Shown here one piece after another: positions 4,308-40,715 of a stretch of DNA of 41,402 nt. The stretch spans positions 1 through 41,402 of the forward strand of contig JANXUP010000034.1 in NCBI GenBank assembly GCA_025356175.1, given 5' to 3'. The notes beneath the pieces were generated by a model, which saw only the letters and a program-made list of their open reading frames with translations, had not been told where the DNA came from and did not search any database. This DNA comes from Sphingomonadaceae bacterium (lineage in GTDB: Bacteria; Pseudomonadota; Alphaproteobacteria; Sphingomonadales; Sphingomonadaceae). The translations under genes and the position numbers were made by a program. Each line of letters starts with the position of its first letter. The first letter of the stretch is position 1.

Positions 4308-4837
4308 TGCTTGTCGTCCTCCGCCGCATTGCCGAGGCTGCGCGCGAGCGATTCAAGCACCGTGCGCAGTTCGGGATCGCCGATGTCGCGCAGGCTGTCC
4401 CCCAGTTCGAACGGGATCGGCCTCAATGACGGCGGCGCTGTCGGACGTTCCTTGGCCGGCGGCGGCTGAACCGCACCTTGCCGAAGCTTGACCTTGACCA
4501 CCGCGTTGTAGCCGAAGAAGCGGTTCACCCGCTCAATGATCTCGGGGATCACGTGGCTGATCATCGGGGCGTGCGCCGGGACCACCAGCAACTGGAGGAT
4601 GCCCTCGCTCTTTTCGCCGAGGGGAAAGCGGATTGCTTCGGGCATGCACACCCGGGCGTGCCGTTCACCCACGATTTCGGGCCAGCGGGTTACTACGCTC
4701 GACTGGACGAAGCCGAATTTGCGGAACGCGGTGCGTCCCACCTCGGGCATCAGTTCAGCGATCGGCCGCGCGCCGCTGCCCCGTGCGCGCTCGAACCGGC
4801 GCGGTGCCGGTTTCGGTGGTTTGCCATCCCGTTCCAT
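4304..4837 (-). CDS. dciA: DUF721/DciA-family protein (candidate replicative helicase loader)
   Basis: 177 aa from the internal ATG (MERDGKPPKPAPRRFERARG...); DUF721-like core FRKFGFVQSSVVTRWPEIVGERHARVCMPEAIRFP; overlaps the upstream stop region of the DsbA-like gene. Confidence 0.75.
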   Translation of the reverse strand: MERDGKPPKPAPRRFERARGSGARPIAELMPEVGRTAFRKFGFVQSSVVTRWPEIVGERHARVCMPEAIRFPLGEKSEGILQLLVVPAHAPMISHVIPEIIERVNRFFGYNAVVKVKLRQGAVQPPPAKERPTAPPSLRPIPFELGDSLRDIGDPELRTVLESLARSLGNAAEDDKQ

Positions 4838-4866
4838 TGTGCGCCTGCCAATGCCATAGCGCTGCG

Positions 4867-5934
4867 ATGGACGCCAGCGCCGAGACGATTCCCGAAAGCC
4901 TGCTCGGCTGGTACGACACGCACCACCGTTGCTTGCCGTGGCGTGCGCCGCCGGGCGCGCCGCCACCCGAGCCCTACCGGGTGTGGCTGTCCGAGGTGAT
5001 GCTGCAGCAGACCACTACGGCTGCGGTCGCGCCGTACTTTGCCCGGTTCCTTGCGCGCTGGCCCAATGTGGCAGCGCTGGCCGCAGCCGAAGAGGGCGAC
5101 ATCATGGCGGCCTGGGCTGGGCTGGGCTACTATGCCCGCGCCCGCAACCTCATTGCTTGCGTTAGGGCAGTTGCGGCGCGCGGCGGTCAATTTCCGCAGA
5201 CCGAAGCGGAGCTGCGCGCGCTGCCGGGGCTGGGTGCCTATACCGCCGCCGCCGTGGCCGCGATCGCCTTTGGTGAGCGCAGCGCGGTAGTCGATGCCAA
5301 TGTCGAGCGGGTGATCACCCGGCTCTATGCGATTGCCACCCCGCTGCTGCAGGCCCGCGCGCAAATTCGTGATCAGGTCGATGCCATCACCCCCGCCGAT
5401 CGTCCCGGTGATTTTGCCCAAGCGATGATGGATCTTGGCGCAACCGTGTGCACCGCGCGCGGACCGCGGTGCCTGCTGTGTCCGCTGTCCGACCTTTGCG
5501 CGGGCCGCTCGCTTGGTCCCGAGCAGTTTCCGGTCAAAGTGCCCAAGAAAGCCAAACCACAGCGATCAGGCCAGGCTTTCTGGATCGAGCGGGACAGCGA
5601 GGTCTGGCTCGTCCGCCGGGCAGACACTGGCATGCTGGGCGGGATGCGCGCGCTGCCCGACGACGGCTGGTCGGCGCGCGGCGATGGCGACGCGCAGGCT
5701 CCGCTGGACGGCGATTGGACCCTGGCTGGCAGCGTCCGGCACGGCTTCACCCATTTCGATCTCGATTTGCAATTGATGGTTTATTCAGGAGCCGATTACT
5801 CTAGGATTGATCCAGAACAAGGCGAATGGTGGGCATTAGGTCGGCTGGATGAGGCCGGTTTGCCCACGCTGTTTGCCAAGGCAGCGTGGCTGGCCACGGC
5901 TGGCACCGTCACGGGGAGAACGATTGGTGATTAG
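4867..5934 (+). CDS. mutY: A/G-specific adenine glycosylase MutY
   Basis: 355 aa from ATG 4867; WLSEVMLQQTTTAAVAPYFARFLARWP, LPGLGAYTAAAVAAIAFGE (HhH), CTARGPRCLLCPLSDLC (4Fe-4S cluster cysteines). Confidence 0.95.
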   Translation: MDASAETIPESLLGWYDTHHRCLPWRAPPGAPPPEPYRVWLSEVMLQQTTTAAVAPYFARFLARWPNVAALAAAEEGDIMAAWAGLGYYARARNLIACVRAVAARGGQFPQTEAELRALPGLGAYTAAAVAAIAFGERSAVVDANVERVITRLYAIATPLLQARAQIRDQVDAITPADRPGDFAQAMMDLGATVCTARGPRCLLCPLSDLCAGRSLGPEQFPVKVPKKAKPQRSGQAFWIERDSEVWLVRRADTGMLGGMRALPDDGWSARGDGDAQAPLDGDWTLAGSVRHGFTHFDLDLQLMVYSGADYSRIDPEQGEWWALGRLDEAGLPTLFAKAAWLATAGTVTGRTIGD

Positions 5935-7243
5935 GCTCGATTTTTCACGCCGCGATATGCTGAGGGCGAGCGCCCTGATGGGCGGGGCGGGGATAATTGC
6001 CGGTCTGCCGCTCGGCGCGCAGCTGGCCCGCGCCGCCGAAGCGGCGGGGATCGAGGCCCAATGGCCGACAGTGACCGCGATGCTCGATCGTTACGTCAAG
6101 GCCCGCAAAGTTTCTGGCATGATCGCCGCGCTCGGCTGGCGTGATGCGCCGCCCGGGTACATCGCACGCGGCAGGGAAGGCTTCGACGATCCCGACCTTG
6201 ATGGTCCGGATAGCCTGTTCCGCGCCTATTCGATGACCAAGCCGCTGACCGGCATGGCGGCGATGAACCTGATCGATGAGGGCAAGCTGAAGCTCGACCA
6301 GCCCATCGCCGATTTTGCGCCCGAATTCGCGCACATGCAGGTGGCGATCGATCCCATGAAAAGCCTCGCATCCCGCCCCGCGACGCAGCTCATCACCGTC
6401 CGCCATTTACTTACTCACACCAGTGGTTTCGGTTACGCGGTCGTCGGCAAAAACAAGGTCGCCGACGAATTGAAGCGGCTCGGGGTCAACCCCGGGATCA
6501 TTACCAAGCGGAAAATCAAGGGCCTCAACGATGGCCCTCCGACGCCGGGGCCGGACGAATTCCTGCGGCTTGCCGCCACTGTTCCGCTGATCGCCGAACC
6601 CGGTGCCAAATGGTCCTATTCGATGTCGCTCGATGTGCTCGGCCTGATTATCGGCCGCGCTGCGGGAATGAGCTTTGATGCGTTCCTGCACGAACGGCTG
6701 TTGGGACCGCTCGGCATGACGAGCAGCTTCTTCCAGGTCCCCGGCAGCGCCTCGGCGCACCTCACCACCAATTACGCCTATTTCCTGGGTCGCCCGTTTG
6801 CGATCGACCGGCCGGAGGGATCAATTTACCAAGACCCGATCCCGTTCGCATTTGGTGGATCGGGTCTGGTCACCTCGCCGGCCGATTTCGACCGGTTTCT
6901 TGCGATGCTGGTCGGCCTGGGCATGTCGGACGGCAAACGGATCATGAGCGAGGCGGCGGTGCGGATGGGCACGTCGAACCTCTTGCCTTCGGGGGTTGAC
7001 CTCACCGGCACCTGGATCGCCGGGCAGCAGTTTGGCGCGGGCGGGATAGTCGGCACCGGCAAAGATGAAGGGCTTTACGGCTGGTCGGGCGCAGCGGGGA
7101 CAATCGGTTTTGCCCAGATGAAGCTTGGCCTCAGGACCAGCCTCTATGTGCAATACATGCCGCAGGACAAGCTGCCGATCCTCAAGGAATTTCCCAAGGC
7201 GATCGGCGCTGACCTGACCGCGATGCAGGCGCGCAAGGCGTGA
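5927..7243 (+). CDS. Serine hydrolase, beta-lactamase/class C fold family, probable Tat substrate
   Basis: GTG start overlapping the mutY 3' end; twin-Arg SRRDMLRASALMGG; YSMTKPLTG (SxxK), HLLTHTSGFGY, WSYSMSLDVLG. Confidence 0.87.
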   Translation: MIRLDFSRRDMLRASALMGGAGIIAGLPLGAQLARAAEAAGIEAQWPTVTAMLDRYVKARKVSGMIAALGWRDAPPGYIARGREGFDDPDLDGPDSLFRAYSMTKPLTGMAAMNLIDEGKLKLDQPIADFAPEFAHMQVAIDPMKSLASRPATQLITVRHLLTHTSGFGYAVVGKNKVADELKRLGVNPGIITKRKIKGLNDGPPTPGPDEFLRLAATVPLIAEPGAKWSYSMSLDVLGLIIGRAAGMSFDAFLHERLLGPLGMTSSFFQVPGSASAHLTTNYAYFLGRPFAIDRPEGSIYQDPIPFAFGGSGLVTSPADFDRFLAMLVGLGMSDGKRIMSEAAVRMGTSNLLPSGVDLTGTWIAGQQFGAGGIVGTGKDEGLYGWSGAAGTIGFAQMKLGLRTSLYVQYMPQDKLPILKEFPKAIGADLTAMQARKA

Positions 7244-37060: not shown

Positions 37061-38980
37061 TTGCCAGGTCCGGACGTCTTTCTGTCCTACAATCGCGGCA
37101 ACGCGGACTTTGCGCAGCGGCTGTTCGATGCCTTGAGCGGCGCCGGGCTCGAGGTGTGGTGGGACGCCATGCTGGGCGGCGGCGATGCCTTTGCCCAGAC
37201 CACCGAGGATGCACTGGAGACCGCCGGGGCGGTGGTGGTGCTGTGGTCGGCCGAAGCGATCCAGTCGCATTGGGTGCGCGACGAGGCGACGCGCGGGCGT
37301 GATCGCGGACGGCTGGTGCCGGTCTCGATCGATGGAACGCGGCCGCCGCTTGGCTTTCGTCAGATCCAGTACCTGAACCTCAGCGGCTGGACTGGCGATG
37401 CCGCCGATCCACGCTTGGCCGCGGTGATCAAGGCGATCCGCGGGGCAGCGACCCGCCAGCGTGATCAGGCCGGCTTTCACGCCCCGCTCCAGTCTGACCA
37501 GATCGTGACCAACCGGCGCGGCGCGCTGCTGCTCGGCGGCGGCGCGCTGGCTGTGGTGGCAGGCGGGATTGGGGTGTGGCAGGCCGGGCTGTTCACTGGC
37601 CAGCCGCGCAAGAACAGCGTTGCGGTCATGCCGTTCCGCAACCTCAGCGGCGATCCTCAGCAAGCCTATTTTTCCGACGGCCTGTCCGAGGAGTTGCGCG
37701 CCACGTTAAGCCGCAATGCCAACCTAGCGGTCGCCGGTGAAACTTCGTCGAACAGCTTTCGCGATGCCGGGTCAACCGTGCGCCAGATCGCCAAGGTGCT
37801 GGGCGTTGCGTTCATGCTTCAGGGCTCGGTACGCCGCGCCGGGGAAACGGTCCGGATCACCGCGCAGCTGGTCGACGGTGCGACCGGGTTCGAAACCTGG
37901 TCGAAAAGCTTCGACCGCAAACTGGCGGATATCATCGCGGTGCAAAGCGATATCGCGACGCTGGTCGCCGATGCACTGGCGGTCAATATCGCCGGAGCAG
38001 GGCAGACCCCGGTGCAGCGGGCGGGGGGGGCCGACAGCTCGGCCGCGCTCGATGCGTTCTTGCGCAGCAAGGCGCTCTATCTCAGCGCCGCGACCGAGGC
38101 TGAAACCCGGCGCGCCTTGGGCGAGCTCGACAAGGCGATCGCGATCGATCCGAAATTTGCTGCCGCCCACGCCTATCGCTCGCGCGTGCTGACTTACATC
38201 ACCAGCGCGTTCAGTTCGGGTCAGGCGATGAAGGGTGCCTATGCCGCCTCAATCGATTCCGCCCGCACCGCAGTCCGCCTCGCGCCCGACATGGCCGAAG
38301 GGTACTCGGCGCTGGGCTTCGTCCTGTCGAACGGACAGCTCGACCTGAAGGCCGCGCAGGAGCCTTACCAGCGCAGTTTTGAACTGGGCTTCGGCAATGC
38401 CGACATGCTGACCGCCTTTGCCGATTTTGCCGCCAACGTCGGGCGGTTTGACGAAGGGCGCAAAGCCAGCGCCCGCGCCCGCGAGCTTGATCCGCTTAAC
38501 GCGAGTGTGTTTCGCAGCGCAGGATACCTCGAATTCAGCGCACGCAAATTCGATGCGGCAATCCCCTTGCTGCGCGCCGCCCTGTCGCACAACCCCAAGT
38601 CCAGCATCGCCAATGCCACGCTGGGCGATATCGCCTTGCTGAGCGGCGACGCCGCCGCGGCAAAGACCTTGTACGAGAAGGAAACGAGTGCGCTGTCGCG
38701 CTTGCGCGGGCTGGCCACGGCAACGATGCGGCTGGGCGATGCGGCCGGCGCCGAGCGGTACCGGGCCGATCTGGTCACCCGGTTCGGCACCAACAGCTAT
38801 TACCAGCAAGTTCAGATCCTGGCGCAATGGCAGCGGCCCGGCGACGCGCTCGACGCGCTGGAAAAGGCATACGAGCTTGGCGATTCGGGCTTGGTCCTGA
38901 TGCGGTATGACCCGGTTCTGGATCCGATTCGACATGATCGCCGCTTTGTGTCAGTTTTAACGCGTCTCGGTTTCTCGTGA
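37061..38980 (+). CDS. TIR domain - transmembrane helix - TolB_N/FlgO-like domain - TPR protein
   Basis: Probable TTG start; PDVFLSYNRGNADFAQRLFDALSGAGLEVWWD...VVLWSAEAIQSHWVRDEATRG (TIR); single TM GALLLGGGALAVVAGGIGVWQAG; SVAVMPFRNLSGDPQQAYFSDGLSEELRATLSR...VLGVAFMLQGSVRRAGETVRITAQLVDGATGFETWSKSFDR; TPR-like repeats to the C-terminus. Confidence 0.88.
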   Translation: MPGPDVFLSYNRGNADFAQRLFDALSGAGLEVWWDAMLGGGDAFAQTTEDALETAGAVVVLWSAEAIQSHWVRDEATRGRDRGRLVPVSIDGTRPPLGFRQIQYLNLSGWTGDAADPRLAAVIKAIRGAATRQRDQAGFHAPLQSDQIVTNRRGALLLGGGALAVVAGGIGVWQAGLFTGQPRKNSVAVMPFRNLSGDPQQAYFSDGLSEELRATLSRNANLAVAGETSSNSFRDAGSTVRQIAKVLGVAFMLQGSVRRAGETVRITAQLVDGATGFETWSKSFDRKLADIIAVQSDIATLVADALAVNIAGAGQTPVQRAGGADSSAALDAFLRSKALYLSAATEAETRRALGELDKAIAIDPKFAAAHAYRSRVLTYITSAFSSGQAMKGAYAASIDSARTAVRLAPDMAEGYSALGFVLSNGQLDLKAAQEPYQRSFELGFGNADMLTAFADFAANVGRFDEGRKASARARELDPLNASVFRSAGYLEFSARKFDAAIPLLRAALSHNPKSSIANATLGDIALLSGDAAAAKTLYEKETSALSRLRGLATATMRLGDAAGAERYRADLVTRFGTNSYYQQVQILAQWQRPGDALDALEKAYELGDSGLVLMRYDPVLDPIRHDRRFVSVLTRLGFS

Positions 38981-39006: not shown

Positions 39007-39228
39007 ATGAAGAAGACAGCATTGATCATTGCTTTGGCCGCTGGCGCGTTGAGCCTCTCGGCCTGCAAAAAGGCCGAAGATGCCGCACCGGTCGCCGACG
39101 CCACCACCGAAGCTGCTGCTGACACCGGCGCCATGCCGAGCGATGCCGCGTCTGAAGACGCCGGTGCCGCCAAGGCTGCTGCGCCTGCCAAAGACGGCGA
39201 TGGCAAGGGTAACGACGTCAAAACGTAA
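39007..39228 (+). CDS. Small Ala-rich putative lipoprotein
   Basis: 73 aa; MKKTALIIALAAGALSLSACKKAEDAAP (lipobox LSAC); good position after the TIR-TPR gene. Confidence 0.65.
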   Translation: MKKTALIIALAAGALSLSACKKAEDAAPVADATTEAAADTGAMPSDAASEDAGAAKAAAPAKDGDGKGNDVKT

Positions 39229-39230
39229 GC

Positions 39231-39247
39231 AGGGCGATGGTCGCCCT
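39231..39247 (+). terminator. Terminator-like hairpin after the small lipoprotein gene
   Basis: AGGGCGA-TGG-TCGCCCT followed by TTC. Confidence 0.45.
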
Positions 39248-40715
39248 TTCGGGAAAGCCAGGGCAGGGCGGTAGCTACCGCCCTGCCGCTTTGCGCGGTT
39301 TGCGCCTTGCTGCCTTGACGTTGGCGATCTCAGCGGGTTTTGCGCTGCAGCCGGTTGGTGCCCAGCAAGGCTGGCCGGACGCAGCCCCGACCGATGATGA
39401 TTTCCTGCCGGCCTATTCGCCGCCAATCGTCGGCAACCCGCTGGCCAAGATCAAGGCCGAGCTCGATCCCGCCGCGCAGGTACCTTTCGAGCGGCTGGCG
39501 GATGGCTTGACCCCGCAAGGCCGCGCGGCGCTGTTCGACATATTCGAACGGTTCGGCGTCGGTTACAGTGGACCCAATGCCGAGGTGTTGTTGGCGACTG
39601 ACCCTGCTGCGCTGCAGCGCCTGATCGATTTCCTGGTCGGCGCCAGTCCGGACCGCCGCAAGTTTCTGGCGCGGCAACTGGAATTCAAGGGAAAAGCGGC
39701 GATTGGCGGGCTGATCCAGCGGCTCGGCAACATTTCAACCGAACACGCTGTGCTCGCTTTGGAGACCGGCAATCCCAACGTTTTGACCGGCGAAGATGCT
39801 GCGTTCTGGAGTTATCTCAATTCCGCCGTCAAGCCGGTCCACTCATGGGGTCTGGCGCGCGCCACTACAGCTCCGTGGCAAGTCCAGCTATCGCGGAGCG
39901 GAGCGAGCGCCGCGAAGTTCGATGCGCGGGATGCTGCGCTCGAAATGAAGAAGTACGGCCACCTTCAGCTCCGCTCGCAGCACAACCATGTTTGTGGCGG
40001 GGTGCAGATCGACGCCAACTGGGTGCTCACCGCGGCGCATTGCGTCGGTTGGACGCCGATGGACCATTTTACCGACAACCGCATGATCCGCACCGGGGCC
40101 TTGCGGCTGGGCAATGGCGGGCAGGTCAGGCGGATCGTCGGGGTCGTGGTCAACAACGGCTTCGATGAGAACTCGCTGCGCGACGATATTGCGCTGTTCC
40201 GGCTGGAGGACGGCCCGGGGGTTCCGGCCGGCCAGGAAATCAAGATACCGACCGCGAGCTATCCCCGTCTGTCCAACCAGCCGCTGCAGCTGACCGGTTG
40301 GGGCAAGACCGGCGAGACCGACGATTTCAAGGATGCTCGCGACGCGAATGGCACGCCCAACAGCTTTTCGCCGGGGCTGTTGATCGCGAAGCTGCGCTAT
40401 GTGCCGATGCAGACCTGCAAGGCCTATGGCACCAAGCTGTTCGAGAAGCTCGGCGCGTGGGTGCCGGGCCAGATTTGCGCGGATTCGGCCGAACGCGCCG
40501 ATGCCTGCCAGGGTGACAGCGGCGGACCGCTGGTCTGGTACGATCCCAAGGGAGCGCCGTGGCTGATCGGGCTGGTCTCGTTCGGCAAGGGCCGGACCTG
40601 CGGACGCAGCGGGCTGCCTGGGGTCTATACCGACGTGCAGTATTATGCCCGGACTGGGTGGATCGACCGGGCCAAGCAGCAATTCAGGGCCGGCGCGGTC
40701 ATCAAGGTCAAGTAA
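39237..40715 (+). CDS. Exported trypsin-like (S1 family) serine protease with ~200-aa N-terminal extension
   Basis: LTAAHCVGW (His), RDDIALFRL (Asp), DACQGDSGGPLVW (Ser); signal-like AALTLAISAGFALQPVGAQQ. The exact start codon is uncertain. Confidence 0.88.
   Translation: MVALSGKPGQGGSYRPAALRGLRLAALTLAISAGFALQPVGAQQGWPDAAPTDDDFLPAYSPPIVGNPLAKIKAELDPAAQVPFERLADGLTPQGRAALFDIFERFGVGYSGPNAEVLLATDPAALQRLIDFLVGASPDRRKFLARQLEFKGKAAIGGLIQRLGNISTEHAVLALETGNPNVLTGEDAAFWSYLNSAVKPVHSWGLARATTAPWQVQLSRSGASAAKFDARDAALEMKKYGHLQLRSQHNHVCGGVQIDANWVLTAAHCVGWTPMDHFTDNRMIRTGALRLGNGGQVRRIVGVVVNNGFDENSLRDDIALFRLEDGPGVPAGQEIKIPTASYPRLSNQPLQLTGWGKTGETDDFKDARDANGTPNSFSPGLLIAKLRYVPMQTCKAYGTKLFEKLGAWVPGQICADSAERADACQGDSGGPLVWYDPKGAPWLIGLVSFGKGRTCGRSGLPGVYTDVQYYARTGWIDRAKQQFRAGAVIKVK
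39262..39287. repeat. Perfect 26-bp palindrome at the 5' end of the protease ORF
   Basis: GGCAGGGCGGTAG|CTACCGCCCTGCC, perfectly self-complementary. Confidence 0.85.

Follow-up and report, generated by a model that had tools for sequence, protein, structure and literature searches.

Among the closest described systems, Thoeris pairs a TIR enzyme with a SLOG-type receptor or a membrane-acting effector: the ThsB TIR protein signals to the SLOG domain of ThsA, and the TM-macro variant of ThsA acts on the membrane (PMC11204291). Burroughs, Kaur, Aravind et al. have described nucleotide-gated SLATT/SLOG systems and conflict systems coupled to peptidases. In excerpts of two of their papers, TIR and SLATT repeatedly appear with trypsin- or caspase-like peptidases (PMC7159879, PMC9503650); trypsin and caspase-like peptidases are seen to alternate (PMC7159879), and SLATT, beside TIR, is a predicted ADPr-gated effector (PMC9503650). 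Finally, CadC-type one-component membrane regulators combine a cytoplasmic output domain, one membrane helix and the periplasmic fold that is also found here.

We report on a TIR protein encoded in a 41,402-nucleotide stretch of Sphingomonadaceae DNA (hereafter the window), which has features in common with all three. It differs from Thoeris in that the TIR domain is fused to a predicted membrane receptor with a periplasmic sensor, that a protease and a lipoprotein are added, and that in the partner a SLOG-like domain and membrane helices share one chain, with neither SIR2 nor macro found. In the conflict systems the corresponding parts occur in MoxR-vWA, GTPase or phage contexts, and a receptor, lipoprotein or Tat-like anchor was not found described in the excerpts. 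Where CadC-type regulators have a winged-helix DNA-binding head, the protein has TIR; it also differs from them in its Tat-like membrane segment and its partner genes. The NCBIfam Thoeris model scored 26 bits against a cut-off of 220, PADLOC gave no Thoeris match for the TIR protein, its neighbours in the window or the SLOG partner, and no known defence system was matched in full; in the open-licence literature we found no description of this combination of TIR receptor, lipoprotein, protease and SLOG protein. Our data suggest TIR-SLOG signalling that is built here on a CadC-type receptor, and the gene cassette is the best clue to the function of the TIR protein. The features are as follows.

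37061 to 38980, plus strand: protein of 639 aa with TTG start, in the order TIR, Tat-like signal-anchor, CadC-like periplasmic domain and TPR (Pfam, homologue alignments, structure model)
37076 to 37396, plus strand: TIR domain, residues 6-112 (Pfam TIR_2, family profile against PDB)
37271 to 37285, plus strand: W71-V-R-D-E75, WxxxE motif with the catalytic-position Glu (homologue alignment, PDB TIRs)
37508 to 37591, plus strand: predicted internal Tat signal-anchor at residues ~150-177, made up of the twin-arginine motif N-R-R-x-A-L and a membrane segment rich in Gly (motif statistics)
37610 to 37984, plus strand: CadC-like alpha/beta domain, residues 184-308, called TolB_N in the preliminary description (Foldseek of the scaffold)
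38039 to 38977, plus strand: all-helical TPR superhelix, residues 327-639 (Pfam, structure model, Foldseek)
39007 to 39228, plus strand: small lipoprotein, MKKTALIIALAAGALSLSAC..., 73 aa, Ala/Glu/Asp-rich with the tail GKGNDVKT (equivalents downstream in homologue loci)
39237 to 40715, plus strand: secreted trypsin-like (S1) protease, 492 aa, with signal peptide, TAAHC, DDIAL and GDSGGP (Pfam Trypsin, 9.7e-35)

The reading frame is preceded by an AAGGGGA stretch upstream of its TTG start, and the full-length AlphaFold model has a pLDDT of 87. The preliminary description, made from the letters alone, had read this frame as a TIR-TM-TPR fusion with an N-terminal TIR domain of ~110 residues and one TM helix, and all of this was borne out: Pfam TIR_2 matches residues 6-112 (E-value 8.5e-22; 78.4 bits, curated cut-off 28), a single membrane segment lies at about 154-173 with its hydrophobicity maximum at 154-172, and several TPR models match residues 391-606. 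Its interpretation, a signal-gated NADase or TIR scaffold anchored in the membrane, is supported in part; neither the gene cassette nor the resemblance of the membrane segment to a Tat signal had been noticed.

Of 351 genomes searched within the order, 52 had full-length homologues, and a protein of 100% identity is encoded on JANYEY010000059.1 (Sphingomonadaceae MAG). Conservation was counted over 60 aligned full-length homologues, whose sources are Sphingomonadaceae and a single Lysobacteraceae MAG, and a separate alignment comprised 37. In the window's own genome three TIR proteins are built on the CadC-like/TPR scaffold, two of them having no membrane segment, and there are two further TIR_2 matches. 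The two that lack the segment (L041, positions 4962-6905, plus strand, on contig C73; L042, positions 4607-6394, minus strand, on contig C80; both of genome G000) are probably soluble versions, and sigma-factor-like genes were noted by eye upstream of or near them.

Beyond the membrane segment, Foldseek on the model matched the scaffold to CadC, namely to its periplasmic domain (3ly7/3ly8; TM-score of 0.70, taken on the target), the match coming from a full-length list that is dominated by designed TPR proteins. The TolB_N/FlgO-like domain that had been proposed here is absent from the Pfam matches of the TIR protein at E 0.01; with the Foldseek match, and with the NCBIfam CadC model matching the soluble paralogue L042 (3.3e-7), CadC-like is therefore the better name for the scaffold. 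The wider idea of a periplasmic sensor scaffold that also serves other heads fared better, CadC being a solved relative and scaffolds with other heads having been found; beyond the order the scaffold is common and its heads are mostly other than TIR. The predicted topology likewise agrees with the earlier one, with TIR in the cytoplasm and the scaffold in the periplasm, as the arginine pair precedes the segment and the CadC-like fold follows it. Separately, in one 2.2-Mb genome of the order (G060) the CadC-like/TPR scaffold was matched 20 times, with no TIR head attached.

The membrane segment itself resembles a twin-arginine (Tat) signal-anchor in an internal position, and we predict from its residues that the scaffold is exported by Tat. 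R152 is present in 60/60 and R153 in 59/60 homologues (the exception, L084, reads RQ), no Lys occurs at these positions, and 55 of the 60 fit RR.[FGAVML][LITMVF], reportedly the motif pattern of a published Tat predictor. The segment has on average 5.25 Gly per 19 residues and a hydropathy of 1.64 in these 60 proteins, against 1.64 Gly and a hydropathy of 2.19 in 14 scaffolds with other heads, of which two have RR and the others R-K, K-K and so on. TatC is encoded in the window's genome. It is nonetheless conceivable that Sec inserts the segment as an ordinary N-in signal-anchor whose arginines merely obey the positive-inside rule: Sec can insert segments flanked by Arg, Arg is favoured over Lys in GC-rich genomes, some 150 residues lie ahead of the motif, and L084 has RQ. 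The near-invariant pair, the fit to the R-R-x-phi-phi pattern, the Gly-rich and weakly hydrophobic segment and the different state of the other-headed scaffolds all make this unlikely, and the rest of the model would hold in either case. Low hydrophobicity, Gly and an invariant RR are described features of Tat signals, and RR is present in 0.02% of E. coli Sec signals (PMC7317946). The N-termini of Tat signals are usually free, whereas the motif here (residues 152-153) sits behind the TIR domain; internal Tat segments are known from Rieske-type proteins (PMC5449189). Sec-Tat dual-targeted membrane proteins, such as the actinobacterial Rieske proteins, likewise have an internal Tat-type segment of low hydrophobicity (PMC5449189), but in these several Sec-inserted helices come first, and in the TIR protein a folded cytoplasmic domain. 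Among Tat substrates, an internal Tat-like anchor behind such a domain would be unusual.

Neighbouring genes were called in the 60 loci by searches with the window proteins and with seeds. The lipoprotein reading frame of the window opens at a GTG at 38977 and overlaps the stop of the TIR gene. In 43/60 loci a lipoprotein starts no more than 136 nt downstream of TIR, compared with 0/663 control ORFs, and the family members have 64-137 residues with a low-complexity tail, in some made of tandem repeats (STDQG, ERTGPD, RTGVDE). Downstream of TIR in L088, L094, L130, L132, L091 and L095 these tails include near-perfect tandem repeats that differ by species (SNDQG, STDQG, ERTGPD, RTGVDE, TGDETR), others being GNP(I/V)GP-like; the tails evolve fast and may be ligands or protease sites.

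A trypsin-like protease gene found by seeds lies no further than 1 kb from TIR in 39/60 loci, and L124, which the seeds missed, has one as well. The window protease is one of three PF00089 matches in its genome; with 2-5 such matches per genome, one is beside the TIR gene in 26 of 28 genomes, where 0.17 would be expected by chance, and chance adjacency was rejected on these numbers, by a test uncorrected for phylogeny. Because neither the adjacency nor the Fisher test (below) was so corrected, loci were also counted by cluster at 60% identity, which gave trypsin adjacency in 25/41 and SLOG linkage in 20/41 clusters. By a strict pattern all three catalytic motifs are present in 31/41 neighbour proteases, most of which have a signal-peptide-like N-terminus; the window protease fails this pattern solely because its Asp motif reads DDIALFR. 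The orientations of the cassette genes differ among lineages, and the linkage has therefore been kept through rearrangement. There are also full-length homologues without any partner, mostly the most divergent ones (32-38%). At TIR loci lacking trypsin, Pfam identified a CHAT (caspase-like) protein with an nSTAND1 NTPase (L080, 9627-13741) and a CHAT-OmpA protein (L084, 8995-11757); in L086 (3229-7199) the nSTAND1 gene was confirmed and, judged by eye, the other gene is similar to the CHAT protein of L080. CHAT with nSTAND1, or CHAT-OmpA, is possibly an alternative cassette.

The WxxxE motif that the preliminary description had pointed out is indeed kept, E75 being present in 60/60 homologues and W71 in 53/60 (Phe in the other seven), and W33, W34, D35 and W62 in 60/60 each. 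When the family profile was compared with PDB, the best matches were NADase TIRs, e.g. AbTIR (8g83, 4.1e-8), and E75 lined up with the Glu of the WxxxE motif in AbTIR and in 3h16. A degenerate TIR domain was rejected on the invariance of E75. Since Toll-like receptors and other scaffold TIRs of animals keep WxxxE too, the motif alone is no proof of catalysis; together, the conserved Glu and the similarity to NADase TIRs support, short of proof, NAD cleavage by this domain. That same background would suit a sensor of envelope stress or nutrients that works without a messenger, its non-enzymatic TIR scaffold recruiting another protein upon binding of the periplasmic domain and its protease and lipoprotein serving envelope quality control, and the CadC-like scaffold is a sensor fold while a secreted protease and a lipoprotein are envelope proteins. 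We consider this quite improbable given that E75 stays fixed while neighbouring positions vary, that the profile is closest to NADase TIRs, and that a SLOG-like membrane protein is linked.

This partner of the putative TIR enzyme has ~650 residues, with GVTGHR in its N-terminal part and a membrane-spanning half at the C-terminus, and is encoded within 5.5 kb of the TIR gene in 34/60 loci. Thirty-four genomes have both genes (linked in 29/34), 18 TIR only, five SLOG only and 294 neither, the co-occurrence being assessed by a Fisher test uncorrected for phylogeny. The window carries the TIR, lipoprotein and trypsin genes, and the SLOG gene of its genome sits on contig C61, 200 bases from the edge. 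The partner model (pLDDT 89) resembles YpsA and DprA in Foldseek, the best match, itself weak, being YpsA 2nx2 (target TM-score 0.63, E 1.8e-3, prob 1.00). Pfam offers a weak sequence basis for SLOG, with YAcAr in 3/12 members, and likewise for a SLATT membrane domain: DUF4231 matches 10/12 (best 4.2e-6, up to E 0.1, and below the cut-off in the first member), SLATT_1 matches one of 12 at 0.092, and the copy in the window's genome has no Pfam match. Matches of the model to TRPM channels were weak (prob 0.3 or less) and were set aside.

NAD cleavage is common among TIR proteins of bacterial defence, SpbK being a reported example, and the clustered receptor might simply destroy NAD and stop growth or phage, with the SLOG protein an independent or immunity-like partner. 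This is very unlikely, as a messenger more easily explains the recurrent, linked SLOG membrane protein, and SLOG is a messenger receptor in Thoeris (PMC11204291).

The reading that we prefer, by analogy with Thoeris, is that a periplasmic cue, likely proteolytic, activates the TIR enzyme and that an NAD-derived product gates the SLOG effector; we hold the chances of this to be about even. The TIR protein would be a receptor in the inner membrane, its internal twin-arginine signal-anchor keeping TIR in the cytoplasm while the folded CadC-like/TPR domain is exported to the periplasm. There it would read a cue set by the small lipoprotein and the secreted protease, the latter most likely acting on the lipoprotein or on the TPR domain such that a ligand contact is relieved or created; the role of these two proteins is the least certain step. 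Clustering of the receptor would bring TIR domains together in an assembly that cleaves NAD; the product may bind the SLOG-like domain of the partner, whose membrane-spanning half would open or cluster and change membrane permeability, as a defence or envelope-stress response. A complete immune-like pathway of the envelope, from protease and lipoprotein through a Tat-exported receptor and a TIR messenger derived from NAD to a SLOG-gated effector, would formally resemble the protease-receptor-TIR order of Toll, and we put this forward tentatively, as somewhat doubtful. The TIR systems compared here, Thoeris and its relatives, are cytoplasmic; if our reading is true, the membrane receptor extends TIR signalling to the cell envelope.

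The cassette recurs in many Sphingomonadaceae species and is testable since most of it is present in a named isolate, Novosphingobium sp. RL4. On plasmids one full-length TIR copy was found, in this isolate, with a divergent SLOG partner and a lipoprotein downstream; trypsin was not found by seeds at that locus. The search of phage records for the TIR protein gave no match. A second family, of ~600 aa, resembles the SLOG protein in the latter's C-terminal two thirds alone, and most of its genes lie away from TIR (genomes g28 and g34). Finally, one SLOG gene beside a full-length TIR gene (G375, contig C1, 1438768-1440732) has one in-frame TGA and is possibly in decay.
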